This document shows, in pieces, positions 1 through 64,000 of a DNA stretch of 64,000 nt. Position 1 is the stretch's first letter. Each line of letters starts with the position of its first letter. The position numbers were made by a program, and so were the translations under genes. The DNA is from Nereocystis luetkeana (taxonomy: Eukaryota > Sar > Phaeophyceae > Laminariales > Laminariaceae). The stretch is from positions 1,922,001-1,986,000 of the forward strand of contig JARUPZ010000024.1 in NCBI GenBank assembly GCA_031213475.1. The letters run 5' to 3'. The notes below the pieces were generated by a model, which was not told where the DNA came from, searched no databases, and worked only from the letters and a program-made list of their open reading frames with translations.

Positions 1-333
1 GTAGTCTGGCGGCCGGGCGCGTTCAGAGTACAGTAGGGACACAAACGTATGCTGCAATATGGTTGTGCGTGTTAGGTGTTGCACAGTGTTACTCTTGTGA
101 AGGGAGCAATCATGCTATAAACTCGCCCTCGTTTTCTGCCATGTGCTTGGGTTCTCCGGTACACCGAGTTTATCCTCTGGCAAATACCTACACTTACGTT
201 TTTCGTCATGCCGTCTGTAGTCGGATCCGAGTGGTCTCGGTACCGAGCAAGTTTACCGTCGAATTTCAGATCTATCAATCTCACATAATTTGGCCGCTGC
301 CGGCGAATTATTTGATTGCCCTCCCCCGGTAAA

Positions 334-571
334 GTTCCTGCGGGCACTCAAGATGCAGACGAGCCTTTGGAGGACTTCCGACGATGCCTGGGTCGACTCA
401 AGCCGTTCAAGACTCTGTCAAACCTTCGCGCGTGGAAACGGGCGCTCGACAGACTCAAGGCTACCAGACACGTTCAATCTCGAGCGAACATCACCCTGAC
501 ACTCAATGGTGATCCAAAACATGGAATACAGCCAGTTGTGCAGGGGTGCCCAATGAGCACAGCTAATAGGT
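334..571 (+). CDS. possible internal exon of an unrecognised gene
   Basis: An open stretch of about 79 codons runs into a strong donor (AATAG|GTAAGC) at 571/572. The translation is charged and looks protein-like, with a Leu/Arg/Lys-rich helical part (around EPLEDFRRCLGRLKPF) followed by a more polar end. The left boundary is unsure: AG dinucleotides at 332-333, about 352 and about 358 could each be the acceptor, and an in-frame stop lies just upstream at 313. I recognise no family. It could be the end of a gene extending left of the window or a transposon exon. Confidence 0.33.
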
Positions 572-2423
572 AAGCCTTCGCGTTCATTTTGTTTTTTATG
601 AACCCCCCGAAAACCAAAATGCATGCCCATTCAGTGATACGCACAAAACAGGGATCGCCTAGTTGCCCGTTTTAGAACGTAGACGAATTGTCGAGTTGGA
701 ATACGCGGGGGGGGGGGGGGAGGGGGTACTCATGTTATACATGGCCGCAGCCGTATTTCCATAGACCCTTGCATCCCCACAATGCCGGGACGGAGCACGT
801 CGGGTTTTGACCGACCAGGCAGACATTGGGGGGGAGGGGGGGTAGCACAGTGGTCAGGGACAGCCTTTGGCCTGATCGATCGTGTTTTTCATGTCTAACG
901 GTATTTTAGACGAGTTAATGGGCGACATCGAGGCCTGGAGACCAATGATTGACTTGCTCGTCACCGTTCATGCCGTGCCTCCACTGTTGTAACCATCCAG
1001 GTGGGCCGCCTACCTAAGACAGGTCGACGTCTGCGAAGACAGGGACTGCTGCAAGGAATCCGAACTGTTGGCAAACGCCCTAAAGAAGCACCCCGCCCTA
1101 TCAAAACACGCACCCCAGCCCTCTTAGAACGGGAAGTAAGCTCGGGGTTGTCGTTGGGTTCCCCCGCCAACTAGACTAAACGAAACAACCATTCTCTGTG
1201 CCGATGTTGTAAGAGGCTGCGTCCTTGGGGGTGTGAGGTTTCGGGATCGCCAAGTATTTTAAATACCCTACTGATTTTCGCTGGTTCAGCTACGGGCAGA
1301 AGCTGCGCGCTCGTACCGGGGCGGATGGCGGCGGCGGGTGTGACTGTAGATGGTGACCTACAGTAGCAAAGTAAGGCCGACTAGATTGGCGTTCTGGTTG
1401 CTTGTTCCGGTATACTAGGTAGCAGCGCATAATGCTTGTCCGGGGGGGCAAAGGGGGCTATGTATATGAACATGCCTAGGGCGACCTGTGTTTGTCCTGT
1501 TTGTGAATTTGGTTACCACGGTGGAAGCCAGGGGAGGGGGAGGGGGTGCTATATTATGTTACGAGTGCCTATAATACTCGACCTACTGTAGAGTTTAGTT
1601 CTTGTTGGTTGCAGCACATGCAGTCGCACCGTGTTGAAAATGTGCAAGTGTGGTCATGTCGTTGCCTAAGCTGGCGTCTTATCCTGTTCTTGCGATGGGC
1701 GTATGATAAAGTGACGGTGGTGGGTATATGTTGTCAAGTATGTGAATGCGTCAACGCTTTCTATATGATTGGCGTTCTTCGGCGTCCGTGTCGGTCTACT
1801 CGTAGTACGATTCAGCGCATTTGGGAGTGTCATAGGGGGCGGCTGCGCTGGGGGGGTCAGCGGTGTTGGAGCTATGAGCAAGCTTTCTTGCTTGAGCTTG
1901 CTGCGCTTCACGGGGCACTGTTATTGAGGAACGGCGCTCTGCCCTACGGGCAGAGAATCTATTGTTGATAATTTTGCGCAGTAGTGTTACAAGCTACAAA
2001 TAACACATAAACTGATGGGTTATTCCGTAGGTCTACCCCTTGGACTACCTGTAACTTTCATGGGTAGTGCACGCACACACAAGGGAACAGTTATGAGTTT
2101 GTCAAACCGAGTCTTTATTATGGAAGTTCTCAGTTTGTAGAACTTAGTCTCTATTGTGGTAATTGCAATCTGCCCGTCTGTCTGTCTGATTATCTGTCTG
2201 TCCGCATCCCTTAAATTTGTTGTTTCCTATGATCGATATATCAGTTCATTTCAGATGATATTCATACGACGTTTTCGACTCGTACAGACGTTATATACCG
2301 GATCGTACCATACCACCAGGCAATATTTAGCCACACAATATATCGACCACTCCGTACCATCATACCATTTCTCATTCCGTGATTTTTCGATCTACAGTAT
2401 TAGCAGTATATCCCACGAACCTT
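572..2423. other. region without a supported gene
   Basis: Only short ORFs without family resemblance. It holds G-runs near 708-722 and 828-841, one copy of a dispersed repeat (700-840), and TA-x-TA motifs such as CTACAGTAG near 1360 and CTACTGTAG near 1585. The 140-codon ORF at 1546-1968 has no recognisable domain and is overlapped by an opposite-strand ORF of similar quality. Confidence 0.5.
700..840 (+). repeat. dispersed repeat, copy 1 (pair with 29458-29590)
   Basis: About 120 bp including atagacccttgca and aatgccgggacgga are shared with 29458-29590 at high but imperfect identity. Both copies start after a G-rich run. It has no coding capacity and its class is unknown. Confidence 0.75.
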
Positions 2424-2560
2424 ACCATCATATACTATACCAACATACGTTATCACATACCGTGCCACACCACACACTGTACCATCATATACCGTACCAA
2501 CATACGTTATCACATACCGTGCCACACCACACACCGTACCGTACAACGTACCATACCATA
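2424..2560 (+). repeat. 57-bp tandem repeat
   Basis: Two near-identical 57-bp units (from 2424 and 2481) share accatcatatac, ccaacatacgttatcacata and ccgtgccacaccacac, followed by a decaying third unit rich in CCATACC. ORFs read through it on both strands only because the period is a multiple of three. Confidence 0.85.
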
Positions 2561-2610
2561 CCCATACTGTACCAACACCACCCGAGGGGCTCAACCATAC
2601 GAGGACACAA

Positions 2611-2728
2611 GAAGGGCATGCCTTCAGGGTGACAGAGCAGGAGCGAGCGCGCGACGAGCGATGGCAGAGCCAAAGCTCTCTGACCGCAGAGCACGCCGGG
2701 GTGGGAGCCCTCTCGTGAGCGATTTCCA
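2611..2728 (+). repeat. dispersed repeat, copy 1 (pair with 3161-3272)
   Basis: It shares gacagagcagga, cgagcgcgcgacgagcgatg and ctgaccgcagagc with the second copy about 550 bp downstream, in the same orientation. Class unknown. Confidence 0.75.
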
Positions 2729-3272: not shown

Positions 3273-3457
3273 CCTAGTTAGGTTGCAGTATGCTCGAGGG
3301 GCTCTAAAATCGGGTACCCCACAGATACTCGACCACATTACATGATCTATGCGAAATGCTACTAGACTCTGGCCGGCCAGAAAATGAAGAACGCTGAGGA
3401 ACTAACTATTTAGATCAAAACGGCTCTTACTTTTATGCAGATTGGTCAGGAGTGCTA

Positions 3458-3562
3458 TTACGGGGGACCACAGTTAATAGGACCTATGGTACACACAAAA
3501 ACCTCTATGTTTACCTACTTTTACTAACAATATTTGGTCCTATTTACTATGGTCCCCCGTAG
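3458..3562 (+). mobile_element. TA-targeting MITE, copy A
   Basis: A 105-bp near-palindromic element flanked by TA on both sides (3456-3457 and 3563-3564) in a C-TA...TA-G context. Terminal inverted repeats are about 27 bp, starting TTACGGGGGACCA; the right end is GTAG instead of the consensus GTAA. It has no coding capacity. TA target duplication and size fit a non-autonomous Tc1/mariner-IS630-type element. Ten base pairs to the right is a TATTAATA motif (3573-3580), read here as an excision scar of the same family. Confidence 0.88.
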
Positions 3563-3572
3563 TAGGAATGCT

Positions 3573-3580
3573 TATTAATA
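3573..3580. other. TATTAATA motif, likely excision scar
   Basis: TA-TTAA-TA equals the TA target duplication plus two base pairs from each end of the MITE family. Other copies: 13802, 14592, 22993, 23288, 34847, 36736, 38134, 43864, 55905 and 55943. Confidence 0.6.
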
Positions 3581-4519: not shown

Positions 4520-4635
4520 TTAAATAGTTGATACTCAACTTTGCAAGCTGCGTAATACGCCTGTCCTATGTTTCATTCATAGTATGGGGTTGTACACAAT
4601 TTAATACCAGGTATGTGTTTATCTAGGAGTTACTT
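4520..4635 (+). repeat. ctcaactttgcaag-type repeat, partial copy
   Basis: It contains the core gttgatactcaactttgcaa followed by the pyrimidine-rich block, as in the array at 13255-14384 and the copy at 49745-49865. It ends with a TACCAGGTA motif at 4605-4613. Confidence 0.7.
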
Positions 4636-11240: not shown

Positions 11241-12947
11241 TTTTCGAGCGTGCGCGCTGGAGACAATACGAATGATTATGATAGTGTGCCTCCAGACACC
11301 AGTAGCGTTTGCCGAGGGGAGGGCCCCGGAGATCACTGTTACCTAGTTGGGCAAATATGGGCATGAGATGCAGGTTACAGTTTTGTCTGAGCATCTATGT
11401 ATGTGTTGAACCCTTGAGCCCAACTACGTACAGCAACACGTTAGTTGAGACTCCGTTAGTTTGCGGCATTCCACATATTTAGATCTTCATACGCGGACAT
11501 CTCGTTTTTAAGTTTTTGAGTTGATGTGTAGGACCACCCATGTTACTTGATACGTACCAAAAGGCAAGATGCTCGTATGCGAACGGGGTAATATTCAATA
11601 AGAGTACAGGAGCAGAAGTAGAATGGAAAGAGAAACATCCGGGTTTATGTAGTGGTCGAGGAATACATGGAGTTGATGTGGGACCAGATATTCTCGTTGA
11701 CAAGCCTCTGTTTATTTACAGTCGCATTTGAAACTTTAGTGGTAAAGAGGAGTTGGAAAGCTGTGAGCAAAACACCCAATGCAGACCTAATCGCTCGATT
11801 GCACGCCCCATCCCTCCTTGTGTGTGTCGGGTCATTACTGCGGAGGCGACGTTTGATTCACCCAGGAGGATAAGCTGGATGACCCGAGCTGCGGCGACGC
11901 CACGAGACCGGACGGAGAGGCAGCCGCGGCGGAGGCAACAGCAGTAGTGTCTGGGGTATCGGGGTGGTTTCTAATGAAATGTGATTGCCTGTGAATCTGA
12001 ATGAATGATTTCATTGTTTTTTTGTTTTTGAATTGTGTTTCCGGTCGATTTGGATTCCACGAGAGTTTTTGGTATTTTCCGAGTGGTCGCAACGTCAAAT
12101 ATTCTTCTAGTGGGGAAACCTATGTGCTATCTCGCATTACCGTCGCGATCTGTGTATCTATGGCGGGAGTAGGGGATAAGGGGAGACTCTTGTCCGGAGG
12201 AACGGGGTTCCTCGCGATCTCTGGCATTAAGTTTCTTGACTTGATTTTTTTTTATTGGCATGACCACTCCTGTGGTATTTTTCTGATGATACTTGTGATT
12301 TACCTGGTAGGTTTTTGACAAGGCTGAAGTGAGACTAGGAAGCTGGGGGCGTGTGCGGTCCACATAAAAATGTTTTCTGACGAGGGAAGGTTTGGATAGA
12401 AGTTGGAATACTGAGAGAGAGGTTGGTAGGACTGAACACTGAAATGCCAGGGGGTGCATACGGTTCGGATTGAATACTTTTCGTTTTCGGTTTTTGGCAA
12501 CTAACACGCTGATTATTTGTCGACAGGATTGGAATTTCTACAATTACGTTCGAGTCGATTTGCGTTTTACATTTTCTTGAAAGTGGACGAATATACTTGG
12601 ATCAATTCCGCGGACAACGCCGTTTTACCTGGCTGAATCCCGAGAAGAGTGCCGTTTTACCTGGCATTGGATTTCGAGAGTTTTACATGTTTGGAACAGA
12701 GAGGCTTTGGATTTGATCGTTTGAATAATGATATGACGATTTGAGTGTTGATTCGAGGACTTGATTTTTGAGTTAGTTGCAGATTGGAGTTTTGAGTTTC
12801 TGAGTTTGGTATGAGGTGATTCTGATATTGCGATCTATCAACCCTGCTATTTCGTGCCTTGTCATGCACCGGAGCAGGGGGGACATTAATAGGGTCGTGT
12901 ACAGTGTTACCGACCTGGGGGAATATTGGAGTATGGTCGTGTATAGT

Positions 12948-13254: not shown

Positions 13255-14384
13255 TGTCGGACATATCATCACATTACGCACTGAATTTTGCAAGTTGTAT
13301 TATAAGCCATTCGCGCGTGTTCTATATACTTTTTAATAAAACTCTGAAATACGTCAGCTGTGAGTTCGACTGATTATTAAGCGATTTTTATACTCAACTT
13401 AAAAACATTACGTCTCGTCTATACCCCATTTTTTCTAATCTTTACAAGTTGTATGATGAGCCGTTCGCGCGTATTCTATACCTGGTATGTAATTACTTGT
13501 TAAAGGTACAGGTAAGTGGCTCCCCTGGATGCTACCCGGGTCTGGATGCCACCTGGGTCAACACGACAATTGTCGTAATCATTCTGCTCACTGATACTAT
13601 GTAACCCGAATAAGGGAGAGTAATATGACGTTGCATATAATAAAAAACTTAAAGAGCACGTCAGCTGTAAGTTCAACCGATCGGTCAATACTCAACTTTG
13701 CAACCAGCGTGATGCATGACAACCGTTCGCGCATTTTCCGTTAATCCCCCCGCGATTGGGCGATTGGCTACTGTTTGTTCGGTGACTCCCCTGGACCCTA
13801 CTATTAATAGTACTGGAGATGCTACCAGGGTCGACGAGACGATAATACTGACTGACTCGATTTCCAATTGATTGCGGCCACAGCAGTACCCTCTCGTGCA
13901 CTGGCCAGCAGTAACTAGTTCGCACGCGAGGGCCGGGGTACACAAGACAATCGAAAGCTTGTTTATAACAGTTCACACGCGACAGGCGCACAAGACACTG
14001 GACTTTTATAAAATTGTGAAGTACGTCAGCTGTGAGTTCGACTTATTATAAAGTTGAAACTCAACTTTGCAAGCTGCGTAATATGTCTCGTCTATATCCC
14101 ATTTTTACTGATTTTCCAAATTGTACGAGTGAGTATGATAAGCCGTTCGCGCGTATTCTGTACCAGGTATGTGTTTCCTTGTCAAGGATATAGGCCAGTT
14201 GAATTTATGATTTTTTTATAAAATTATGAAAGACGTCAGCGATGAGTCCGACTAATTATATAGTTGATACTTAACTTTGCAAGCTGGGTACTATAATATA
14301 TAATATGTCTCGTCTATATCCCATTTTTACTGAGATTCCAAATTGTATGATAAGCCGTTCGCGCGTATTCTATATGCATTTCCT
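13255..14384 (+). repeat. array of about 200-bp ctcaactttgcaag repeats
   Basis: At least four diverged units share a Lys-codon-like A-run, tacgtcagctgtgagttcgac, a ttgatactcaactttgcaag core, a tcgtctatatcccattttta block and ccgttcgcgcgtattct. Units start near 13325, 13640, 13985 and 14215, with partial ones between. Other copies lie at 4520-4635 and 49745-49865. Several units carry TA-x-TA motifs (TACCTGGTA 13479, TATTAATA 13802, TACCAGGTA 14161) that the other units lack. Function unknown. Confidence 0.8.
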
Positions 14385-14715
14385 TATGTGTGTGTTCTTC
14401 ACATTAAACCGTTCTTTCTACCCGTCGGCATCCAGCACAACCAGTGTCCGTGCCGATTCTTCAATAATACTAGAAGAGATACAAGCTCTGTGGTCACAAA
14501 GCTACGCCACAGAGATACTACGTTGCCACGTGTCAGGTACCAGGTACGCAGTAAGCACAGCAGTGGGCAATGCAATGTCATGTCAGCATACTATTAATAG
14601 ATACGACAGGCACGGCATACACATTCTATGGAATAGAGAAACGAAAGGAAACAATCAAAGAGAAAACAAAAACAAAAACGAAGAAGACAAATCGAAGAGA
14701 AAAAGAAAAAAATGA
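14385..14715 (+). repeat. 330-bp dispersed repeat, copy 1 (pair with 40115-40411)
   Basis: Copies at 14385-14715 and 40115-40411 align over their whole length, from tatgtgtgtgttcttcac to an A-rich tail of gaaaaagaaaaaa type. Differences are mainly short indels, several of them TA-x-TA motifs. The A-rich 3' end suggests a retroposed element. Confidence 0.88.
14592..14599. other. TATTAATA scar with paralogous empty site
   Basis: Here catactattaatagatacgac; in the paralogous repeat copy (40291-40306) catactagatacgac. The extra six bases turn CTAG into CTATTAATAG. This is direct evidence that the motif is an insertion. Confidence 0.85.
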
Positions 14716-16240: not shown

Positions 16241-18166
16241 AGACGAGAGACTGGATTTTATGGATTTCCTTCGTAGGTCGTATGTCGTAGGTTATCCCCA
16301 ATGCCAAAGAAAATAGCACGAAACGATACAAGTTGCGCCGCTCGATATTTACTTGAGATCTTGAGAGATAGTTTAGGGTTTCCCCGTAAAAAATTTAAAA
16401 ACGTCGTGAAAGAACGTCGTCTCAGTTATTTTCCGGCAAAATAAATCGTCGCGAACTTCGCCGTGACGTTTGAACCACAGTTTGGCGAGTAGTCTGCGGA
16501 AATGATGTAGATCTCGACGTTCGGCCCGCTTTTTCATCTACCAGGTACCTGGTACCTGCTATTTCCTGTCCCGATTGCGCATTCCTCATACTCATGTACT
16601 CTCATCGCCTACCAGATACCGGTACAAAGCATGAACCCGCAAGAACTAAAACCTCCGGTTTATCAACTGGCGCTACTGCCGTTGTACACCCCTTCCATTC
16701 GTGGGTCCAATCACGTGTGTGTTGATTACTGTATGTGTGCCTGAAGCTCGTACAGCAGCAGTTGCCGGACGTACGAGTACATACAGCAAACACACCATCA
16801 GGTGTCATACCTGGTTTACTACTACTACTGCTGTAGTGGTATAAAACACTCGTATCTGGACAGCAAGCTTCAAAAACGCAAAACCATATGGAGCGATCCT
16901 CCGTCCTGCTTCTTCGTACATCATACTCGTACGAACGCCATATATATGCTCCGATGACCCGCTACATACAACCTCAAGCGCAACCTGCTGCGGTACCGCC
17001 GCCTGCGTTATTCCCCCCCCTGCTCATCATCCTCGTCCTTTTCATCTGCCTCCTCCACCCCGCTCGGATCTCCAACCACAGCAGCAGCTCCCCCACCTCT
17101 CGTGCCCACAAATTCCATCTCCGGTGAGCGTCCCAGGGAGCCAAAGCTATCATCCAGACGCACTGGAGAGCTGTTGCTCCCGGTCGCCCTCAGAGGCCCA
17201 ACGCCACCCCTCTCGACCCCCAGTCCGGCATGCTGCGGCTCTCCACAGCCTTGGCGATGGTCTCGGCTCGGCGGGGTGCCAGTGCAAATGGAAAATGTCT
17301 TTTGCGCTCGCTGTTGGTGTGGTTGCATGCCCCTGGCTGCGTGCATCCGAGGACATGTTTCCTCTCGTCGACAAGAAACTCAACAAGCGATCAGCGCAGA
17401 GCTGTAGATGGGTTTCACACAAACAGAAAGCAGTATCTATCTCCCGCGGTGCCGGCCGGCCACACGTTGAAGCGGTATATGCCGTCGTGGTGCACTGCTG
17501 CTGCTGTGGATTGCTTACAGCGCAGGAGATGAGGGATGCCAAGGCTGGGAGATGGGGATGGCCTGGCTGCGGTCTGTTCGCAGCTGTTCATCCTCTCACG
17601 ACGAAAAAAAATACTCGTCGTGGTAAAATTTCTAGGTTTTTGAATTTTTACGTACCAGTATAATTTAGCGGCGTAACCTCGAGACGACTTTCTTTTGGCG
17701 AGACGACGATCTTCACGACTTTCTTTTTTTACGGGGAAACCCTATAGGGCCTGGTATGACATATTCCACGGAGACGACCGGCACGATGAAAGGGTAGACC
17801 ATACTGACCAGCTGACACATATTGAGAACTGAAAACACGATAACACACTATACACTATACACACAGCAGGACGAGAGATGTACGATTGGACGATTGGTCG
17901 CTAATCGATTGGCACGCAGCCCGACAACAGTTCCCCAGTACCCAACTAAAAAATCCCTTCGAATTCCACTGAAACCCACTCTCCATCCTCCACACACATG
18001 ACACCCGCGGGTGTGAGAGCATAGTAGTGGTACGCTGAGGCTTTATCCTTGAGTGCATTACGTGCCACGACACTGTGAGTACCTGTGTCGGGAAGCACTA
18101 TCGAAGGCGTTGGTGGGGCCACCAGTGAACCAGAACGTAGGGTTCTGGTCCACACTAACGATTGCG
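16241..18166. other. region without a confident gene
   Basis: It has the double motif TACCAGGTACCTGGTA (16539-16554) and TACTGCTGTA (16826). Between 17008 and 17663 several frames are open on both strands. The minus-strand frame 17346-17008 ends in a natural acidic tail (EEADEKDEDDEQGGE) before a stop and might be a C-terminus, but its start and exons cannot be fixed. A minus-strand frame 18155-17946 with a protein-like end (CVEDGEWVSVEFEGIF) is another weak candidate. Confidence 0.35.
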
Positions 18167-18451: not shown

Positions 18452-19072
18452 CTCTATCGACCCCTTTTTCCGCGTCCCCATCGCCAGCTGGTGTGACAAA
18501 TCCCCATCGTATCCTGGAATTCTCCCGGTCTAACTGGCATGCATACTTGCTGCCCTTGCAGCCCAGTTGTTCTACAAGAACACCAGGTTCCTGGTGAGGC
18601 AGGTTTCTCTTCCTGGTGAGGCAGGTCTCTGGTCGGACAGGCTCCCAAGGGTGCAGTTGGCAAAACCCAGGTACCTCGTACTCATACTCGTACGTCCCAG
18701 GTATATACCACGACTACTCCTGGCGTGTACCTGGTACGTATCACGCAAGAACGGTACGCAAGGATGAGGAGCGTGGCAGATGCCTTGAAGTGGGCGCAAC
18801 TATCACGCCTGACAGATTACGATCTACTACTGCTGTGTAGATCATCTAGACCCCATATGCAACGTTCTCCTTCGGAGTATGTTTGACTTGAAATCCCGGG
18901 GGTATCGCATGTTGAAAAGGGGCAATATCGTCATCTGGCGTTCTTATTTACTTGCGGGAATAAGAGGCCTGCGCGCCCGCACGTTGTGTGTGACTGATTT
19001 TCGCCCAAAAGCATCCAGGTATACCTGATTTTGACCAAATCCCTTCTTTTTTTATTGTACGCCTGGCCAGCG
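18452..19072. other. region without a supported gene
   Basis: It contains a small direct repeat (ctggtgaggcaggt, 18592-18627), TACCTGGTA at 18728 and TACTCGTA-type motifs (near 18677). ORFs are short and overlap on both strands. Confidence 0.4.
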
Positions 19073-19167: not shown

Positions 19168-19174
19168 TACAGTA
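19168..19174. other. TACAGTA scar with empty paralog
   Basis: Left terminal repeat: gaaacTACAGTAagattg. The right arm of the same element (19968-19978, reverse complement) has gaaacTAggattg. CAG plus TA was gained at a TA. TA-CAG-TA is the known footprint form of several Tc1/mariner elements. Confidence 0.75.
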
Positions 19175-20095: not shown

Positions 20096-22196
20096 ACCCG
20101 CCTGAGTTTTTCTGAAGCCACTATTCGCCCAACATCGGTCCCAGAATTGTTTTTTTCGGGGAACTTTTGGTTTGAAGAATCGTGCTCATTATGGCAAGCT
20201 GTGTCTGAAAAATTATGGCGCGTATCTTTGAAATTCGAAGGCATAGGTCTATGAATGGTGAAGAAAATAGAAACGATGGGGATTGACTCCGAATCAATGC
20301 GGGTTGTTTGATGAAAAGATGTCTATAATAGATGGCTAGCAGGGGGGGAAGGGGGACCCCTGGCTGCTTCCCAAGAGCACGTTATTTGTTGTTGCCGGTT
20401 GCCCGTCTCGTGGTCTCTGCGGAAGAAGCTTGCCAAATCGCTCGGGAGACTGTGCTGATGGTCGAGAGCATTTGACTCGTGCATGCGTGCATACCGAATT
20501 TTCCGTGAGAAATATAATTGGGCATAAATACTACCAGGTATCTGGTACTCGGCAGAATTGATTGCTGGGTGTGTACGACCGTACAGCAGGCACATTGGAC
20601 GCATGTACGCACCAGCTGGTGCGCCCGCATGTACGTACGTACTGTTCATACGTGCACGAAGAGCATGACATTTTACTAAGGGATGACATATTATCCTCCC
20701 AGCGGGGAAGGGTTCATTGCGTGTCCTCGGGAATACGGGGATGCACTGATCGTGTCCCCGGCAGCAGTGGTCGTAATACGTACGTATTATATACCTGGTA
20801 TAATACTACCTATAAACGTACACAGATTGTATGCACGTACAAGGCGCTTCGCTCAGGAAGGAAAAAAGTACATCAAATTATGCGAAGCGAACAGAGGTCC
20901 ACGTTTGAGTTTAGTTTTTTCAAGGATCGTAATTGCAAACCGGCGACTTGATAATGCCAAGAGTCCCGCCGCCATGCTTCAGGAAAAAACAGCTCCGACG
21001 TCAGCTTGGATGCCACATATACGCTTCGCGTCGCGGATGTCGTACGTACGTACATACCCCAGGTAGGGTACTACTGTCTGTACTTATTTTCTTCTTTCGA
21101 TATGCTCTACCTGGTATGTCTGTACTGTATGTACGAAGAAAGCGAAAGCACAGCACGGTACAGCAGCAAAAACAATAAAAATGAAACCGAAAACTCCGAA
21201 AGGAAAAAAATCCCCGTCCCCTCTCGTGTAATATTTTTCTGCCTGATTGGAACACCTTACACCCGCAGCCCGGTCGAAAAGAAGAAAAGAAACAAATCGC
21301 ACAGAAGAGCTTCTCTCTCAGCCTCGTACGCCGCCCGCCCCTCTCGCGACCACCTCGCTACCGATTCGGTCCGGGTAAAGCTTTTATCACTCTCTGCCAC
21401 AATCAGCCCCGTCGCCCGTCTCGCGTGAAGCCCGGTGCTCACCGTGGCCGTCGTTCGCCAGCTCGATAACGTTGGTGTTCAAACTGCACACCTCCCTCTT
21501 CAACTTTAGCGTGGTCTCAAAAATAAGCACCGCTTGAATATTATCTTGCCCTCCCGAACGACCTTCATAACTCGTACATACTCTATCAACAACCATAAAT
21601 CGAAGCCAGACAAAGCCCGTTCATGCATCCCTCGTGTCTCGAGGCACACGCGACGCCTAGGCACGAAAGCGGCGACCGCGCTCCTTGCAACCCCCCCTCT
21701 ACCCGCCAGCACCCGCTGACACCCGCGACGGTGCCGGGTCCTCCCGCGATGCCGTGGTCGGAGAACACGCACGCACACGAAACGAAAGAAGAAAAAAGGA
21801 ATAAAGGACCGAGAAAACAAAGAACTGCTGGAAAGGTCCGGCAAGTAATGAAAGGAGGCGGTTTGGAAGTGGGAGCTCTGAGAGGCCAGGGATGCACCAA
21901 CCGAGCACGCTCAGGGGTTGTGATCTAAGTATGTAGTTCTATGTACGTATAATACGTACATCAGGCACACTGTGTGCACGTACGTACAGCATCGCGTGAG
22001 CATCGCTCTGAACATGCTTTGTCGTCGAAGAGCTATGGCGTCTCCAGGCACCGTCTTGCCTGGTACCTGGATCACATTAGTGCGCCGCGTTTGTAAAAAA
22101 AAACATTTGTTCGCCACCAATTTGTTTCATGTTTTCGTGATCAGGAGAATGAAATCGTCGTTGTATCCGTGCAAAAGCGCTTTATAAAATACTCGC
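20096..22196. other. region without a confident gene
   Basis: Rich in acgtacgtac stretches (20625-20640, 20780-20830, 21040-21060, 21940-21990) and TA-x-TA motifs (TACCAGGTA 20532, TACCTGGTA 20802 and 21108). Several ORFs of 60-140 codons overlap on both strands (such as 20562-20951 +, 21006-21428 +, 21506-21844 -) without domains, so none is called. Confidence 0.4.
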
Positions 22197-42726: not shown

Positions 42727-43020
42727 GGTACTGCTTTGAATGAGGCTGAGAGCCCAGTAATTACCTGGGTTCAGGTATTGGGGTCGTATTGGCTGTACTT
42801 GACAGGCGTTTCTTCGATGGGAAAAACAGGAGCTTTCTCAGCGAGGCACGAGCCTTACCCTCAGTCTCTTCGTGCACGAAATGAATAATACTGCCCTTCT
42901 TCTATATCTTAGCAAACAACACAAATGAGCACCAACTACATAGTACCTGCTCAATATGTAGGCAAACCTGGCTAGGAATACAAAGTGTCCCGACCTTGAT
43001 CTTAACAAGTGGCGTCGTCG
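42727..43020 (+). repeat. 290-bp repeat R, copy 1
   Basis: It starts ggtactgctttgaatgaggc, has aattacctgggttcaggtat, ccagcgaggcacgagcctt and catcgtgcacgaa-like blocks, and ends gtgtcccgaccttgatctta and acaagtggcgtcgtcg. No coding capacity. Confidence 0.88.
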
Positions 43021-45560: not shown

Positions 45561-46694
45561 GTCTGTCGTCGTTGTGGTACACTCTACACTGCCTTCTGCC
45601 TGCTGCTGCCTTCGGAACTGTTACTTCTATCACATCGAAGGCCCTGCCGAGCTCAACGCGGACACCTCTTCCGTGATGAGACATCGACGGGCGATCCCCA
45701 TTCGAGATGGCCCTGCGGATGGCTCGTTCACGTTTTCTTCTAGCATAGAGTCAAGGCGACTGCTCCAAATCGCAACGTGATGCACGGACGAAACAAGGCG
45801 TTCTCTTCAAGCGATAGCGCCAGGAAAATACTGTGTTCGGAAAAATCGAACAATCAACCTCAGGCTGCGTCAGAAATTATTTTTTGTTTTTTTTCCGGGA
45901 AATCAACTACCGTGCATTTGTTTTTTGTCTCCCAGCACAGAACATACAGCAGCTATAATTTGCCATGCAGAGCAGCTTGGAGATTGGCGAATACAGAGCA
46001 AGTTTGAATTGAAGTTGTCCAATAAATGAACCAATTCGACGCGATTCGACGAAGAACGTGCGTCGTGCCGTGGGGAGGGGTACCTGCTATGTTTCCTCAA
46101 GATCAAAGTTGCGACGAGAGACAGGTATCATCTTCATGAACTCTATGGCATGCAATATAACATTGGAGATCGAGGTAAAATTGTCAAGATTATATATCTT
46201 GCAAGTTCCTTGTCTATCCCTCTTCCTCCTCCTCCCCTTCCCCGGGCATGTGTGTGCCCTTGACTTCCCATCACTTGGCATTGGCTCCGCACTTAAAACC
46301 CTCGAAAACAAACGCAGTGATTATGATGATGCTATGTCCCAAGTGACGTCTCAAACTCTCAACCCCTTCACCGCTTCCCGGGGCATGTGTGCCAGCGACA
46401 GCCTGCAAACATGTGCAGCCTCGTAGATCGTACGTACCTGGTATTTCGGTATCGGTATACCGTAATGTCCTTTGATAACACCCCCCGGGGCGCATACACG
46501 TTTTTGGCGAAAAGTAACACCACGGGCGTACCCAGAGGTAGAGGGATGATCTTTTCACAATACCGAGAAAAAAAAAACACGGGGCGAAAAGCCCCCGGGG
46601 TGTTGGTCTCTTATTTTCTGTTCTGTTCGGGGCACCCACCGGAGACACACACGAACACATAATTTGCCGCGGAGCTCTCGCGCTGGAACCTAAG
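45561..46694. other. region with weak exon candidates
   Basis: Plus frame 46058-46426 ends with a plausible coding stretch (LGIGSALKTLENKRSDYDDA to a stop), but no splice sites fix it. TACCTGGTA lies at 46435. An inverted pair (accccccggggcgc near 46481 and gcccccggggtgtt near 46590) can form a hairpin of about 110 bp. Confidence 0.35.
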
Positions 46695-47349: not shown

Positions 47350-48599
47350 TGATTGTACTTCAATATATCGTCGTCGTTACAACAATCGTCCCCGTCGTGG
47401 CGCACGTGGCATATTCAGAGTCTTGGCAATTACGGTACATATTCTACGTACTTCGGTATCGGTATACCGTAAGGGACTCGTTTAAACAATATATATGCTC
47501 GTACTTCGAATCGATTTCAAATCGATTTTTGATTTCGAATCAAATCGGTTTCAAACGACTATTTTTATTAATCGAATCGATTTTAAATCGATTTGGCGGG
47601 AATGTGCTTTGGCTCCTATCGGGGAAACACCTGTCCCAGCGTATTCTCGATTTTTTTTATGACGTCGCAATACCGCATAATCTCACACGACACCCGGCTG
47701 ACAAGCGCAGACGAGAGCGACAGCGTGCATCGTCGCCCCGCCGCCAGCCTCTGTTTCGTTTTGGCGACGCAGGCTAGGAAGCTATCACGCCAAGCGCCAC
47801 ACACGGGACAGCGACGGCGATGCAACTATCGGAGTCTCTAACTTTTATTCCGTGTTTTGGGTTGATCGCTTGGTTCTCGTGGCGCTTGGCCAAACCATCT
47901 GGTGGAACAATTGGGTTAGAGACCACCAGGAGTTTGTTCTAGGAGCCACCGTCGGGTTACGCTGAGCTATGGTCTGTGGCTGTGGGCGCGGCTGTTGCCC
48001 CGGTTGCAACTCATCCAGGTTCACGATTTATCGCCCCGGTGGTGGTCGTCGATAATACCCGAACAGCGACGGATTGTCTGGGGGACGTTGGCACAGTGGG
48101 GGCATGCCATGCAAGTTGGATGTACTCATTCCACTTCGAATCGATTTGATCGGATCGAAGTGGAAAAAATATGTATCTTGGGGAACTAAATTCTTACTTT
48201 TCCACCAAACCGAATCGACTTAATTTATACCTGGTATTCATAAACCATGAATCCATTCGATTCGAAAGTGTCCTTTGTTCAAACGGGCCCAGACATCTCG
48301 TAAAAAGGCGAAGACGAATTATGTGAAAGCAGAGCCTAGACAAGCTACTACTGTAGATAGGCTACGAATAGTTAAACCGGGCCTCTACGTCTCCTGAAAA
48401 AAAGCACATCGAATCATTTTGAGGCTGAGCCTAGGCAAGCTCCTAGACTATCACATATATATACGTATTTTTGTGCCCGGTATGTACGACAAAAAAATAC
48501 TCCACACGTCAGCCAGATCATCGATCCACCCTTCATGAGCTAGATACTTCAAGGCAGACATATCCCCGACCTTGTGCATACGATACCAGGTACCGGGTA
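47350..48599. other. region without a supported gene
   Basis: It contains repeated cgaatcgattt words (47505-47600, 48133-48260) and cassette sequence (gagcctagacaagct, gagcctaggcaagct) also found at 35960-36060 and 40440-40560. Confidence 0.4.
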
Positions 48600-52396: not shown

Positions 52397-53576
52397 ATGG
52401 CCTTCGACCCGGAATCTCTCGCTTTGTTTTCGCTCCTTTGCCTTATCGGGCATGAACCTGGAAAGGTGATGGCGATGCCGGATGATTTCCGCGTCGAGAT
52501 TGTCGAGGAGATCACGGACAAGATCATGAACAGAGTCACAACAAACAGAAAGGAGGACTTTCGTAACGACTTGCAGTTGAGACTCCAATCAGCCGTCAGC
52601 ACCATGCTCACAGCGTTTGACTCCAATGACAAGCAGGAACGTGAAGAACAGGCCGAGCGTGGGTAAGCCCCCCCCCCGTCTACTGTAGAGTCCTGTGTAT
52701 GTTTAGTAAAGCGTCCAAAGATGTCTCCAGCGATGAAATATTCATGGCTCGAGCGCTACGCGTATACCAGGTATGAATGGACTTGGATTTGCAATGGCAA
52801 TAATACTTGTGAGCCTGTTCTCTGCGAGTCTATATATAGATCCCGCCGAGAGTATTTGGTTAACGTTTTAAGACACCCTCGAAACCAGCGCCCTGCTTGT
52901 GTCCGTGTTGGTTTCTCTTTTCCCGTCTTTACAGTGAAGGGGCGCAGAGCGGAGAGGAGGGAAGAAGCAGCAAGCGGCCCGCCCCAGTCTCCGAGGCATT
53001 CTTCTCTGTGGGGTCTTCCGTGGAATTGTCGGGCGAGGCACCCACCCCATCGCCAGAGCCCGGGAAGGGGAGTAGCAGCAAGAAACGAGAGCCATCTGAT
53101 AGGTATCAGTATGTTAGTATGTGATTGCGAATTTAGTAGTCTGCTAGCAGGTCTGTCAATGATGTAGGTGGTTAACGTAGTGCCGAAGGCCAAACGTTGG
53201 AGCTTGCGCATTGCGCGCATATCGACTCCCCTAAATCCGGCGTGCGGCACAATTTCGCCGCAAATTTGGTCATCATGGCACGTCCATTCTAATGTGATGC
53301 AACCCAGCCCTTGCACGTGCACTCGGTGCACTTCCCAGCAGGTCAGCGTCAGCCACGGTACCTTCTGCGGTCTGCCCTCGCTCGCTGCCCGTTCCCCAGC
53401 AAATCATCCAGACCCAGCCCCCTCCCGCCCAGATGGTAGCGACCCTGCATCATATTATGGTTTGTGTTGGGTGCGTCGGCACTTCAATGGACCGGCTGCC
53501 GCAGAGTTTCGACAGCGACGACCTTCAAGTTTTCTTCAGCCCTTTCCGCTGCGACCCTTTGCGCGAATTGTTGTAG
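52397..53576 (+). CDS. three-exon gene, 222-residue protein of unknown function
   Basis: ATG at 52397 (cgaaATGG). Exons 52397-52662, 52935-53102 and 53342-53576 are joined by GT-AG introns of 272 and 239 bp (donors CGTGG|GTAAGC and GATAG|GTATCAG; acceptors ctttacag and ttcccagcag). Exon lengths sum to 669, an exact multiple of three, with the only stop at the end. The first 80 residues look folded and helical (DDFRVEIVEEITDKIMNRV...), 85-145 are Ser/Glu/Pro/Lys-rich and probably disordered, and the end (QIIQTQPPPAQMVATLHH ... SFDSDDLQVFFSPFRCDP) may fold again. No family recognised. The start is only 200 bp after the stop of the previous model, so the two may be parts of one locus. Confidence 0.5.
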
Positions 53577-55904
53577 CCATGGTCTCTTTTTTGCTGTGAA
53601 CAGCTATTGCGGCCGTGTCCCTGCTTCGTTCGGGCTGTGTACGTAGTTGGTAGTGTATGCTCTACGAGAGTACGTAGCAGTGTTTCACGTCGGTAGCCTG
53701 TGCCGTCACTTTGTTTAAGGGAGTTGCGCTTGTTGCGCCACATCTGCATGGTGTCATGTATGTTGGCGTGGGGTTTCATACCTAAAATATATAGTCTTGC
53801 GCATTTCTTGCTTTGTTCGGCCTATAGTATAGTCTACAGTTGTTGTCTGATACACTATTTTCCCTTGTTGGCTCGGTATTGACAGCGACAATACCTCAAG
53901 GAAATAGCTGGGGAGGGTACCGCAGCAGCAGTGTTTGTAAGTGTGGCTTTGATGTTTTTATCTCTAAAGCTGTTCACCAGGCAGCAGTGTTTTTGTTTGG
54001 TTTATCGTCTTACTGTAGGTTGACACAGTAACGAATCTATGCTCTACCGAAGTACCAGGTAACATGTATTTCAGGCGAGTCATCCTGCACATTTTTAGGC
54101 GATTTCGCTTGTTGTGACACACGTTGTTTTGAGTTGCTGCTCAGTGCGGGCCCTTAGTTAGGGACGTTATACCGGCGCAGTGTGGGTAATCTGCGAAGAT
54201 TATTGCTGCGGTGGTTTGATGTACGTGCAGCCAGCAGCAGCAGCGTTGCGCTTGCTGTATAGGACCGACGGCCGGCACGGTTATAAGGTATTGTGCAGTA
54301 GAGGAGCAGGGGGTGAAACCCAGACTCTGAGAATGGCGACTGGCCGCCAGTGATTTCTTGCCGCCCACTCGTCGCTCACCAATTCGAAAGAGCGGGGGGG
54401 GACGGAGACCGGCTACTGCTGTACTTGTGTTCAACACCATGTAGACCAATTGTTACCCGTTTTCTTAACATGTTTTACCATGTCGGAGGAGAAGGAATCT
54501 AATCGTAGTTACTGGTACATACAGCAGTACATTTTTGCGGGACTCCACGTGCTGTCTGAGGCCGAGACTGCTGTGTACAGCAGGAACGGTCGGAGTCTAG
54601 GGAGGGAGGGAATATAAAACTTTTTACACAATACTCTGGCCCACGCATACTGCTGTACCGCGTGTAAATGAGTGGTTTGCTGCTGAAGGGGCGTCTACGA
54701 GGTGCCTCGGGCGGGAGTTCTCATTTACCTCAAAGTAATACATTTTACCCTCTTGGCTCTGTGGACCAACTCTGAACGTTTGTGCGACATGCAGGGTTTT
54801 CTTTGTTTCTAGAGGCTGCAAACATTGCCCCACTCTATTTCCAATTTATTCGCCCTAAATACATAGGTGCAGTTCTAACAGGATTGAGATGCGATCGGTA
54901 CTTGAGAAAAGGGTTTCGTGCCCGCGTTATTCTGTACCAAGGGATACATGGATGTCTCCCTTTGTTTTCGCACACAGCAGTACAGGAGGGGCAGAAACGG
55001 ATAGCCCTCCCTCCGCGAAGTGACACGCGCATGAAGTGTTGGAGCGCGAATCACTCGCGCCCGATTCAAAACATGATATTTGTTACATTCTAGGGTTGAC
55101 CCCGGGGACAAAATGCTTGTTACAGTCAGCACCTGGGGGTTGTGTTCATGCGGGCGAGCACCGCTAAATCCCCAATTGTGTCCGCTAGACTCGATAATAT
55201 CCTCAAAACGGTGTACCGGTCCCCCCCCCCCCGCCACTTGACGGTATAGAGGAAACTCGGCACAGAAAGGCTCTTTGTATCGGCGACCTCAAGGCACAAC
55301 AAAGCTTAGGTCACACCGTCTCCTATCTAGGTCAACTGGCGCGACACGCCGCGAGTATACCGTCTTCCGTCGAGTAGTTCGTGTCCGAAAAGCCATCTCC
55401 GGCCTCTTGTGGGTGCTGGTGGGATGTATCCAAAAACCTCCCGCCTGGGCTGCAGGAACGACTTGAACACGCACACCGAAACCCTTCCCATCGCTACTCA
55501 TCGCACAATGTAAACTCCTGAGCTCCGGAGACCAGCATCGATCACGGCAGCAGCAGTATCTCAAACATGCGTGTATTGTGGAACGCCCAGGAAAATATAT
55601 ACCTGGGGCGAACTGCGTTGGTTGGAGGGGACAACTTAGTATTGACCCGGACTTCAGAGGGAAAAAAATGTAGGTGAATAGTGACGATTACAGCAACGAC
55701 GGTCACTGCGTGGTTGGGGGGCGATATAATAAATTGGTGTCCGAAGCACAATGCAAGGAGCCGACTCGTATAGTATAGCACGGCCGCGACATGATATTTC
55801 TGTGCTGCTGGGCGCATGCTCTGCTCGTAGACGATGGGTGGCACCGAAATTAGTCATTGTTTCAGTCACTACCACAGGGCGCCCCCAAGGGGTCATTAGT
55901 CTAC
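53577..55904. other. region without a confident gene
   Basis: Motifs TACCAGGTA (54053), TACTGCTGTA (54414, 54648), TACAGCAGTA (54530). Frames on both strands around 54624-55100 look partly coding (minus: YYFEVNENSRPRHLVDAP) but no model holds together. Frame 55275-55564 has no domain. Confidence 0.35.
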
Positions 55905-55950
55905 TATTAATAGGGTACTCAGTCAGCGCTGACTGGGTAGACTATTAATA
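55905..55950. repeat. inverted pair of TATTAATA motifs
   Basis: Two CTATTAATAG motifs (55904 and 55942) flank ggtactcagtcagcgctgactgggta, itself near palindromic and similar to the element ends at 43.2-43.9 kb. Confidence 0.7.
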
Positions 55951-57471: not shown

Positions 57472-57839
57472 AGCGACCCCCAAAACTCAAAACTCAAGAC
57501 TTCGGTACAGTAACGGTGGCTGTCAGTTGCCGGTGGCCATGGAAGGACGCGTGGTAGGTCGAGCGTGGATCGTGTAGACCCAGAAGATTGATATACGCTG
57601 TCGCTAGGAAGTCGCCTAGCAGGATATTTGGAACTGTCGTCAACTTTTGTTCGTTCGTGGATGGTGGACCGCAGTGGATACTTTGTTGTTGGTTGTCGTC
57701 TCGTCGCCATCATCAAAAGGCACGTACTCGTACCTACGTACCAGGTACGGAGGAAACGAAACGCAAACATCAGGAACCTGCAGGAAATGTACCATAGGCG
57801 TGCGTGGTGGAAGGCACGGCAACCACCACGAAGCCATCG

Positions 57840-59518: not shown

Positions 59519-59714
59519 TAGAATTTAAGAACTCCTGCCCCCAACACTCGACACACACCCTTTCACATTCTTCTGCGTACGCGGTGAAAATGATGATATC
59601 CCAACTCCAACGTTCCCGTGCGCATAAAAAGCAGGCCTGTAGGTACCAAGTCGGGTGCTCTTGTCGATTCGACCGACGATTTGTTCGCCGAATACTTTCA
59701 ACGATGGTATACTA

Positions 59715-59819
59715 TTACGGGGGACTATAGTTAATAGGACCTATGGTATACATAAAAACCTATATATTTAACCATTTTTACTAACAATATCTGGTCCTAT
59801 TAACTATGGTCCCCCGTAA
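59715..59819 (+). mobile_element. TA-targeting MITE, copy F
   Basis: 105 bp, C-TA...TA-G flanks (59713-59714, 59820-59821), both ends intact. Confidence 0.93.
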
Positions 59820-60064
59820 TAGGCCCACAGACCGAAACAACATTGCCACTAATCTTCCCTTCTATGTACAAAGGTAGAAAATGTACCCCCCACCCCACCC
59901 CCCCCCCCCTTCGCCCGTGCGGGGGGGGGTGCGTATGATAGGACGTCTTTCTGTTTTTTCGTCCGCACCAACGACGGAAATAATATCGCAGAACGTCTGT
60001 CGCGATCACGCTGCCGGCCGGCAATGACTGCGAGAGACACCTTCATGAATACCGGTAGGTTCTA

Positions 60065-60169
60065 TTACGGGGGGGCATAGTTAACAGGACCAAATATTGT
60101 TAGTAAAAATGGTTTAACATATAGGTTTTTATGTGTACCATAGGTCCTGTTAACTATGGCCCCCCGTAA
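60065..60169 (-). mobile_element. TA-targeting MITE, copy G
   Basis: 105 bp, TA flanks (60063-60064, 60170-60171). It lies 245 bp from copy F in opposite orientation. Confidence 0.93.
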
Positions 60170-60171
60170 TA

Positions 60172-62149: not shown

Positions 62150-62850
62150 TAGGCCTCCAGCCCAGAGTTGTCCGACGAGGAGCGCATCACACTTGTCTTG
62201 TCTTCGTTGGGCCATAGGCACCCACCCTTGTATTGTTATTTACCCGTTTGATCCTTCAGAGAAAAGGACAAAGCCGTGCAGGTTCCTGGGATAGGGGGTG
62301 GTGCATGGAGTGCTCGAACTACGATGCAACTAGTTGCACGAGCGACACACGAGCAGCATGTTTTACACTACTCGGACCGCTGCGCGCTCACGCTCACACT
62401 GTCTGCAGCCGATTGATAAGATCACCCCTCTCGTCTTTGTGGTCCCGGCACGGTACCTGTGGTCCCCCAAAACGTTCAAGAACACTGCAGTCTGACTGCC
62501 AGGCGAACAATGGCGTAGGCGTTTCCTACTCGATAATTCCCAAACCTTGCGCGCGGGTGCGGGGGGGGCAGGGGGGGGTTATCGCTGTTGATCCAACAAC
62601 ATGTTTCAAGCTGCATAAAGAGCACTGAACCTGAACGATGGGTGGTAGTGCAATACCACTTTTTTCCTACCCCTTCTTTTTGTATCTCTTTATGCTTCCA
62701 ATCTCAACTCGTAGACTATTGAGGAGGTTTCATCTTTCATCCGATAGCATCATCGGTGCTGCTCCATTAACCGTTGTTTTTGCCTGTCTGAGCTTATCGA
62801 TAATGGTACTGCAAAACTCATCTTGTTATTTTCCATCCACGTTATTTTCG
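62150..62850. other. region without a supported gene
   Basis: ORF 62233-62628 (+, 131 codons) has no domain. G-runs near 62561-62578. Confidence 0.4.
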
Positions 62851-63117
62851 ATGACGCAGTGAAGGAGTTCCGGCCGTTCAAGACTGCCGGCAGGAAAGGC
62901 AGCGTCGCCGAGAAGTGGGGGCTGATGCATGCCAAAATCCTTGCCGAGGAAGGCAGCGCGATCGGAGTCGCGCTAGCGGGAATTTCCAAGTCGCGGTTGA
63001 AGTCACATTTCCGTCTTCTGCTGGCATACAAGCGCAAGAGCATCGGTGAAGCACGACTTGCTTCCGGCGGAGACTTGGAGGAGGTCGAGGGGCGAGACGC
63101 CATCCCGGTGAGAATTG
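62851..63117 (+). CDS. exon with a possible Myb/SANT-like (trihelix-type) domain
   Basis: The open frame runs into a donor (ATCCCG|GTGAGA) at 63117/63118. The translation has FDDAVKEFRPFKTAGRKG..., W at the expected place (AEKWGLMHAKIL), then KSRLKSHFRLLLAYKRKSIG and ARLASGGDLEEVEGR. The order aromatic-AV-PF, Trp, basic F-x-LL, (A)SG-x-x-E resembles Myb/SANT-like DNA-binding domains found in many transposon-related and host proteins of protists. The acceptor is not certain (cgatgacgcag at 62862, or further left). Family assignment is inference. Confidence 0.45.
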
Positions 63118-63964
63118 ATAGCCCTGCAAGCTGTTGACGCGCAACACACCCGCGGTAGCCGACGCTTTATCATAACGGCGCTGCTGAGGTTAAGCTTGCA
63201 TGCGCAGTATTGTGCCCGCTAGACGTAGGTCATGCTGTACTGAGCTCGCACGTGCAGGAACTGCTAAGCTTGGGGTCAAAACGTAACTCGGGCAGCAACA
63301 TTAACTTTAAGGAGAATGTACTCGGCAGCAGCACGCTGATGTTGTAAATTGTATCTTTATAGTGGTATGCTGGGGGTTGCACTGCTGCTGAAGACCCCTG
63401 CTTCGATCGAGACATCGGTGTACCGTTTTTTGGCCAAAACATATTCTGACTGACGGGGCCCCTCAAGGGCGCTGAGGAACTACATGCTCAATATCGTTGG
63501 AAGGCCGCTGTTATTAGTGTTTTACTTAATTTTGTTATCTGCGTGCCTTAAGACATGCGGCTATTTTTTTTTGTTCCTCGTGTTGCCATATTTTGGGTGA
63601 ATTGAGGAGCACACCCGAATTTAAGGAGCCTCAGAAAAGTAAAACCTACCCCAACCGTGGCACGCGTCTAAAAAAATGCTTACTTTTGTCCATCGTGCAC
63701 GGTGCCCGGGTAGTATCAATAACTGCAATCTGCGTGGAACCTTTCGCCGGCCTGGTGCTTGGGCCTGTAGCAAACGACACACGCGCGTCTCGCGAAGCTC
63801 CAACTTGAGCTCGCGTGAATCTGGCGTTGCGTGTGACGAGACAGCAGTGTTTGCAGCTCTGCAGCGCGACTCAGGGGTTTGTCAAAGGTCGCCGGAAGGC
63901 CCACTTTGTTTTTATTTTCGTCCCATCTGCAGTACGCACCCGCGGTTGAGAAGCTGGGAGTTCG

Positions 63965-63965
<1 letters not shown>
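63118..63965. other. intron or intergenic sequence
   Basis: It probably begins as the intron after the previous exon. ORFs 63593-63808 (+) and 63716-63904 (-) are short and without domains. Confidence 0.4.

Positions 63966-64000
<35 letters not shown>
63966..64000 (+). repeat. GAT microsatellite at the window end
   Basis: Perfect TGA/GAT triplets up to the last base; it continues beyond the window. Confidence 0.95.

Follow-up and report, generated by a model that had tools for sequence, protein, structure and literature searches.

Why should one stretch of brown-algal DNA carry the same few short words, each bounded by TA on both sides, in numbers well above expectation? The stretch in question comprises 64,000 nt of the Nereocystis luetkeana genome (contig JARUPZ010000024.1) and is referred to here as the window. 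A reading made from its sequence alone had noted several such words of the form TA-x-TA and had taken them for footprints left by the excision of DNA transposons that insert at TA. According to the analysis presented here, the main motifs are very probably excision scars of cut-and-paste, TA-inserting transposons acting in a Tc1/mariner-like mode. This origin is well supported for two of the classes, those in which x is CCWGG (where W is A or T) or TTAA.

In addition to the window we analyzed a sample of 240 kb from the same assembly, made up of twenty-four 10-kb stretches on twelve contigs; L-numbers (L007, L011, L018 and so on) denote these sampled stretches outside the window. Window and sample together form a 304-kb set, from which the telomere-rich stretches L001 and L003 were removed to give a 284-kb set. 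Counting was done on the window and the 240 kb only, and whole-genome figures are extrapolated from the sample.

Excess of TA-bounded words

Expected word numbers in the window were derived from a second-order Markov model, and for TACCWGGTA from 100 dinucleotide shuffles. The counts made by eye in the sequence-only reading agree to within one with the exact counts, which are 14 for TACCAGGTA (15 by eye), 11 for TACCTGGTA (12), 7 for TACTGCTGTA (8), 5 for TACAGCAGTA (6), 12 for TATTAATA (11) and 6 for CTATTAATAG (6). TAC[AT]GTA occurs 28 times, TACGAGTA and TACTCGTA together 14 times and TAC[CG]GTA 14 times, and CG between two TAs is in excess as well. The Markov expectations by class are 0.5 for the CCWGG pair, 0.18 for CAGCAG, 0.38 for TTAA, 8.7 for CAG, 2.1 for CGAG and 7.4 for CCG. 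The 25 copies of TACCWGGTA, which all differ in their flanks, compare with a shuffle mean of 0.43 and a maximum of 2. An unbiased ranking of 9-mers in the window places TACCAGGTA second, behind the C/G homopolymer CCCCCCCCC; poly-C and poly-G runs are very frequent here, with 19 runs of at least 9 bases. Palindromic cores between two TAs number 95 against 65 expected at length 3 and 47 against 19 at length 5, whereas the effect is far weaker between two ATs (66 against 63 and 19 against 15). The corresponding figures are 67 against 75 and 22 against 18 between CGs, and 63 against 75 and 15 against 21 between GCs.

The sequence-only reading had suggested looking for the excess beyond the window, and direct counting finds it in the 240-kb sample. 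TACCWGGTA occurs there 93 times against 2.7 expected (24.8 per 64 kb, a density similar to that of the window), TATTAATA of the TTAA class 67 times (2.2 expected), TACAGCAGTA of the CAGCAG class 29 times (0.4), TACGAGTA of the CGAG class 38 times (6.4), TACWGTA 70 times (25), TACGTA 118 times (56) and the CCG class 50 times (29). CCWGG density is uneven: across 22 stretches it runs from 0 to 22 sites in 10 kb. The palindrome TTCCATGGAA was considered as a sister motif and rejected: its seven copies in the window lie between 32631 and 33557 (~0.9 kb) and the sample has none, so that it is a local repeat.

Dependence between the two TAs

A second measure, the two-TA test, asks whether the left TA of a core x raises the odds of a right TA; in the 284-kb set, sites with similar flanks were collapsed, and ten cores that had been reversed but not complemented served as controls. 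Within the window the test gave an odds ratio (OR) of 22 for CCAGG (p = 3e-12) and p values of 4.5e-9 for CG, 3e-7 for CAG, 4e-7 for CGAG and 9e-6 for TTAA, while CAGCAG (p = 4e-4) fell narrowly short of Bonferroni significance among 177 six-mers. Over 284 kb the values were OR 17.6 for CCAGG (p = 6e-42), 10.9 for TTAA (p = 2e-26), 6.6 for CGAG (p = 2e-19), 3.2 for both CCAG and CAGCAG (p = 3e-6 each), 2.6 for CG (p = 3e-20), 2.3 for CAG (p = 1.5e-10), 2.1 for CCG (p = 2e-6) and 1.9 for CA (p = 9e-15). Nine of the ten reversed cores were null, and the other, GGACC, was weak (p = 8e-3, 284 kb). The highest-scoring 4-mer, ACCC, is the telomeric repeat; further cores that pass are ATAG, ATAA, TGAA and CCAC (length 4) and TAATA (length 5), not all of which are explained.

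Single-TA states among repeat copies

Since a single assembly was used, repeat copies found by comparing window and sample with themselves stood in for orthologous sites. Nine classes of x were scored at every site lying under an alignment with good flanks, and other TA-x-TA sites provided the control. Alignments cover 11 of the 113 CCAGG sites, and at 5 of these 11 a copy lacks exactly x plus one TA, compared with 1 of 163 controls with another 5-base x (p = 2e-6); a stricter count, which merges the two entries for one shared site and omits a self-hit of doubtful standing, gives 3 of 9 (p = 4e-4). At the remaining covered CCAGG sites the motif is absent with a diverged TA (one site), or the copy has the same motif (two), the same length (one) or some other state (two). 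For TTAA 8 of 79 sites are covered, of which 4 have a single-TA copy, compared with 5 of 255 controls (p = 4e-5). The single-TA state that the sequence-only reading had looked for at orthologous sites is thus found among repeat copies, significantly for CCWGG and TTAA and as single cases for CAGCAG (1 of 5), CAG (1 of 10), CCG (1 of 10) and CCAG (1 of 4). It is read directly from the alignments; in the cleanest case, at 12301, the window has GTGATTTA-CCTGG-TAGGTTTTT and L018 has GTGATTTAGGTTTTT (1312 columns, 95% identical).

Two further results concern the direction of change and the central base. A copy in L019 of MITE A, a miniature inverted-repeat transposable element (MITE) described below, carries a CCTGG that is missing from 11 alignments with other copies; because the CTGG or CCTGG of single MITE A copies is missing from the others, the scar is the newer state. 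The suggestion that the central A or T varies because a mismatch can be repaired either way also holds up, with 55 centres A and 58 T; in one tandem repeat a single position holds CCTGG in one copy, CCAGG in another and neither in two more. Repeat-copy alignments gave 259 non-tandem indels 3-16 bases long. Of these, 32 are bounded by TA, 22.5 times the single-placement expectation, the next dinucleotide being AT at 11.3 times. CCAGG accounts for five of the six seven-base TA indels (two of the five representing one shared site), and TTAA for four of the eight six-base ones.

CCWGG is palindromic and sharply defined, with few one-mismatch variants, as might be expected of binding sites or other functional words under selection; a recent burst accounts equally well for the scarcity of decayed copies. 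We consider this explanation, which the sequence-only reading had itself raised, highly improbable. In the motif, x plus TA has been inserted cleanly into an existing TA, homologous copies differ by that exact insertion in more than one class, the flanks are otherwise unrelated, and those of TTAA match a transposon target preference. Both this explanation and that of insertion hot spots, discussed with MITE A, were set aside because the repeat copies differ by exactly x plus TA.

MITE A and the TTAA scars

MITE A is an element of ~105 bp, TTACGGGGG...CCCCCGTAA between TAs, with seven copies in the window (Table 1). It has a TA target duplication, as judged from two paralogous empty sites, and terminal inverted repeats (TIRs); the empty site in L011 that is paralogous to a variant copy in L016 reads CTATCCTAGGAGAT. 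TTAA is the only class whose x matches the termini of a TA-duplicating element found here, and the link is observed directly in flanks and empty sites. Outside the TA, the bases T-A-C occur at 21, 23 and 23 of 37 MITE A ends (background ~11, 10 and 8) and at 80, 89 and 78 of 146 TTAA half-sites (background ~42, 40 and 32). Of ten class profiles applied to the 37 MITE A ends, that of the TTAA flanks fits best at +28.7 nats, followed by CAG at 13.2, and 2000 random draws did not exceed -0.6. TTAA scars therefore sit where MITE A would have sat. The C...G around TATTAATA, counted as part of the scar in the sequence-only reading, is instead the target preference of the element. The 304-kb set contains 39 MITE A ends (some twenty copies), compared with 79 TTAA scars in the 284-kb set; TAACAATA and TAATAGTA lie within or at the ends of MITE A copies in 6 of 9 and 5 of 12 cases, respectively. 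No partner element of MITE A was found.

The preference of MITE A for a palindromic target, (T)ACTAG(TA), lends some colour to the idea that the motifs are favoured target sites of TA-inserting elements and not leftovers of them. However, at the empty MITE A sites the sequence is CTAG and not CTATTAATAG, and repeat copies of TTAA sites have CTAG with a single TA, which contradicts the idea for TTAA; we regard it as extremely improbable. A long inverted repeat at 36987-38969, with arms 78-90% alike, has in one arm a MITE A copy, a TTAA scar and a further TA-bounded insertion, all missing in the other.

CCWGG and CAG-type sites and their candidate sources

CCWGG sites prefer A or G before the TA, often as ATA. 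This context differs from that of TTAA and MITE A, so another transposase is likely to be involved. Seven adjacent CCWGG pairs, two of which make up one triple, share a TA, which means that scars can serve as new targets. A hot spot that is also richer in TA occupies positions 1-10000 of L023; its 22 CCWGG sites, a triple chain among them, compare with 6 in each neighbouring stretch of 10 kb.

Nineteen inverted TACCWG pairs in 304 kb reach 13/16 matching bases, and all have a scar at one or both ends. Repeats beginning TACCTGATTTTGG were considered as a CCWGG source (five copies, at 19022, 34158, 34222 and 35013 of the window and at 2994 of L007, with inverted copies at 34.2-35.0 kb), but no element bounded by TA on both sides could be defined from them. 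Two TA-flanked elements with long inverted ends beginning CAG, at L014 6187-9675 and L022 6004-8057, are possible sources of the CWG class; ten open reading frames from them gave no Pfam family above the cut-off. A 580-bp element (including its TAs) that extends from L026 9563 to L023 142, with inverted ends CTGCTGAT beginning CTGCTG, is a possible source of the CAGCAG class; it is a single copy with a partial relative in L022.

The want of an established CCWGG source element in the sampled DNA would suit an origin in which abortive transposition or end repair left small insertions at TA and the full element had never been present. Against this, x is a fixed near-palindrome with an A/T centre at 55:58, as self-annealed inverted-repeat ends predict, and TTAA has a matching element in MITE A; an origin of this kind seems very unlikely.

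Contrary evidence and the weaker classes

Several observations weigh against an origin by excision. The floor of the two-TA test is high, as the single-base cores A (OR 2.4, p = 2.5e-100) and C (OR 1.8, p = 2.4e-39) also pass, presumably owing to the clustering of TAs; because these cores score alike, the classes with an OR near 2 (CG, CA, CAG and CCG) are weakly supported. No single-TA paralog was found for CG (0 of 16 covered sites) or CGAG (0 of 2), numbers that may be too small, and CA (2 of 40) pooled with CG gives 2 of 56, no higher than the 3 of 159 of controls. The original footprint claim is well supported for CCWGG and TTAA, whose single-TA copies exceed the control; CG and CGAG have no verified empty site here, and CA does not rise above the control. 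Four-base TA indels are not enriched for the listed classes (5 of 10, P = 0.17), and a cruder indel control gave 4.3-fold for TA, 4.3 for AG and 3.9 for GT; TA had no lead in it because tandem duplications were counted. The statement that the words have TA at both ends is correct for the main ones, but CACAGCAGTA, which is not so bounded at both ends, is over-represented too (7 against 0.2 in the window). At 5-6 bases, the longer footprints lie beyond the 2-4 bp that PMC7913693 gives for Tc1/mariner. The flanks of CAGCAG are asymmetric, and this class overlaps the CAG-repeat background. No transposase was identified or tied to any class of x. No CCWG-ended element could be established in the 304 kb, where 338 non-scar TACCWG starts yielded no inverted pair of at least 13/16 and two at 12, in a scan of ~0.3 Mb that a family of up to ~1000 copies could escape.

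We see about an even chance that CG, CA, TAA, CCG and, in part, CAG and CAGCAG are products of microsatellites or base composition, in which case the scars would be limited to CCWGG, TTAA and possibly CGAG and CCAG. The passing of the two-TA test by single-base cores, the pooled CA and CG figures and a TAA class that lacks the MITE A flank all point that way. On the other side, the reversed core GC shows no excess (p = 0.16) where CG has p = 3e-20, and CAG, CCG and CAGCAG each provide a single case with a single-TA paralog.

Proposed mechanism and comparison with known systems

The scars would arise as follows. Insertion would convert TA to TA-element-TA, and on excision staggered cuts by the transposase would leave a few terminal bases on each flank. 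Annealing and joining of these overhangs by the host would produce TA-x-TA with a palindromic or almost palindromic x. The centre would end up as A or T wherever the overlap contained an A:A or T:T mismatch, and different families would leave a different x and show a different flank preference. TTAA would derive from MITE A by two 3-base overhangs TTA that overlap by the self-complementary TA. CCWGG would derive from a second family, with termini expected to be CCA/CCT or CCAG/CCTG; CCA overhangs overlapping by one mismatched base would give CC(A/T)GG. These steps of cutting and joining, and any superfamily name, are inferred. When the overhang model was applied to the window counts for the 64 possible 3-base sequences, TTA, the start of MITE A, came out best, although 21 of the 34 counts behind it are TATTATA, with flanks unlike those of MITE A; CCA was second and CCT third. 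For CCWGG plus CCAG, a 4-base overhang, CCAG, scores above the 3-base ones.

The footprint of Sleeping Beauty has the form C(A/T)G. Sleeping Beauty and Tc1/mariner resemble the present case in combining a TA duplication with terminal bases from staggered cuts; they differ in that the footprints here are read by word statistics and that the best classes have 4 and 5 bases. Sleeping Beauty and mariner have 3-base overhangs, which a review gives as 3' overhangs with footprints identical to them (PMC7827188). As the 5 bp of CCWGG lie outside the 2-4 bp cited above for Tc1/mariner, the CCWGG source is not assigned to that group, and by the overhang and footprint sizes in the literature the 5- and 6-base classes are unusual. 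Stowaway MITEs in a beta-amylase intron of Triticeae left several different footprints per site; as here, these are short pieces of the TIR enclosed by duplicated TAs at orthologous sites that lack the element (PMC1925063). That work followed one intron across species, whereas here two classes supply an estimated one scar per 1.5 kb. For the rice species Oryza sativa and O. glaberrima, PMC4423477 also treats DNA transposon excisions at genome scale and reports 8 of 94 as perfect, the others having deletions or filler, while a few stereotyped products stand out in our data. Word statistics are blind to messy excisions, so the two data sets are not directly comparable. Ectocarpus is reported to have almost 12,000 Mariner-Tc1 copies, mostly non-autonomous, in 17 families (PMC12477816); these are likewise brown-algal, a likeness by description and not by sequence comparison of the families, and neither footprint nor excision occurs as a word in the main text of that paper.

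Features of the window

The positions of MITE A copies and TA-x-TA sites are collected in Table 1.

Table 1. MITE A copies and TA-bounded words in the window, with the state of homologous copies where these were found
Feature	Position	Remarks
MITE A copy, TIR TTACGGGGG, TA flanks	3456..3564	
MITE A copy	33752..33860	
MITE A copy, TA / decayed CA flanks	38540..38648	within inverted-repeat arm; other arm is empty site AACTAGTC
MITE A copy	40564..40678	
MITE A copy	41325..41432	
MITE A copy	59713..59821	
MITE A copy	60063..60171	
TA-CTGG-TA scar inside MITE A copy	40612..40619	in 0 of 6 other window copies, 4 of which have TA there
TA-TTAA-TA scar	14592..14599	copies at 40.3 kb and in L018: CTAG, single TA
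TA-TTAA-TA scar	38134..38141	opposite inverted-repeat arm (37.3-37.8 kb) single TA
TATTAATA beside MITE A copy	3573..3580	
TATTAATA within TACTATTAATAGTA	13802..13809	
TATTAATA	22993..23000	
TATTAATA	23288..23295	
TATTAATA	24162..24169	
TATTAATA	34847..34854	
TATTAATA	36736..36743	
TATTAATA	43864..43871	
TATTAATA	55905..55912	
TATTAATA	55943..55950	
TA-CCTGG-TA scar	12301..12309	homologous L018 stretch single TA
TA-CCTGG-TA scar, diverged tandem repeat	13479..13487	copies near 13,320 and 14,370 without scar
TA-CCAGG-TA scar, centre A not T	14161..14169	same place, another copy of 13-14 kb tandem repeat
TA-CCTGG-TA scar	36781..36789	two homologous copies 7 bases shorter here, TA itself diverged
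TACCAGGTA	4605..4613	word count
TACCAGGTA	14538..14546	paralog at 40.1 kb 14 bases shorter here
Two CCWGG scars, one common TA (TACCAGGTACCTGGTA)	16539..16554	word count
TACCTGGTA	18728..18736	word count
TACCAGGTA	20532..20540	word count
TACCTGGTA	20792..20800	word count
TACCTGGTA	21108..21116	word count
TACCAGGTA	22899..22907	word count
TACCAGGTA	24198..24206	word count
TACCAGGTA	24846..24854	word count
TACCAGGTA	26820..26828	word count
TACCTGGTA	34643..34651	word count
TACCTGGTA	36558..36566	word count
TACCAGGTA	40938..40946	word count
TACCTGGTA	46435..46443	word count
TACCTGGTA	48228..48236	word count
TACCAGGTA	48584..48592	word count
TACCAGGTA	52765..52773	word count
TACCAGGTA	54053..54061	word count
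TACCAGGTA	57739..57747	word count
TACAGTA (TA-CTG-TA on other strand)	19168..19174	homolog at 19.97 kb single TA
TATGTA	42955..42960	homologs at 44.0 and 44.4 kb single TA; CA class as a whole no higher than control
TACAGCAGTA/TACTGCTGTA, one of 12	54414..54423	word count
Other TACAGCAGTA/TACTGCTGTA (starts)	11009, 16826, 22476, 29375, 41850, 42647, 48617, 54520, 54648, 61687, 61924	
TACGAGTA/TACTCGTA, one of 14	57725..57732	word count
Other TACGAGTA/TACTCGTA (starts)	1797, 2734, 14936, 16772, 16924, 18685, 19364, 19375, 28200, 30321, 36297, 38031, 58222	

The window also contains a reverse-transcriptase fragment at 6425-7057 (+) with 150 protein matches; among the 120 matches listed, all the named ones are from Laminaria digitata, and identity to the proteins of that species is 59-82% (69% for the best-scoring), which indicates a brown alga. 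An open frame at 27332-28198 (+) is gag-like, with a CCHC zinc knuckle at its end. Copies of one repeated unit enclose four minus-strand tRNA-Lys(CTT) genes (36135, 40743, 47276 and 48942), one with an 83-bp tandem duplication (48815-48980). Near-perfect tandem duplications (99%) are present at 7220-7619 (200 bp) and at 61676-62150 (237 bp), the latter doubling a TACAGCAGTA site. A megablast search of the 30-50 kb part against phages gave no matches, and neither did one IMG/VR scan.

Scale, age and significance

The combined excess of CCWGG and TTAA, ~155 in 240 kb, amounts to about one scar per 1.5 kb, and extrapolation of the sampled density over the twelve contigs (~179 Mb) gives some 70,000 CCWGG scars. 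Variants of CCWGG with one mismatch are only 43 above expectation, compared with 110 intact copies; this ratio of 0.39, set against the ~1.1 reasoned for steady accumulation with neutral decay, suggests a recent burst. Decay ratios are unusable for other classes, that of TTAA being spoilt by TAATAATA (181 copies) and that of CGAG being 2.2.

A more far-reaching proposal is offered tentatively, as a possibility that we do not ourselves favour. The 5-base CCWGG and 6-base CAGCAG classes might come from TA-inserting transposases with overhangs or joining unlike those described for Tc1/mariner, the ends being joined by the host through a nearly deterministic short-overlap pathway. The genome might then hold very roughly 10^5 CCWGG scars, tens for each surviving element, each adding a TA target and sometimes forming chains (TA-CCWGG-TA-CCWGG-TA), and these would make up a countable ledger of nearly vanished families. 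Among the matches listed from the open-licence PMC literature, titles and abstract openings do not describe a scar ledger of this sort.

Enriched palindromic k-mers in a genome are not necessarily binding sites. If scars occur at hundreds per Mb and can be sorted by x and by flanks, past excisions could be counted and bursts dated from decay. The termini of lost transposons could in that case also be inferred, and a lineage's repair of transposon breaks measured, all from one assembly.

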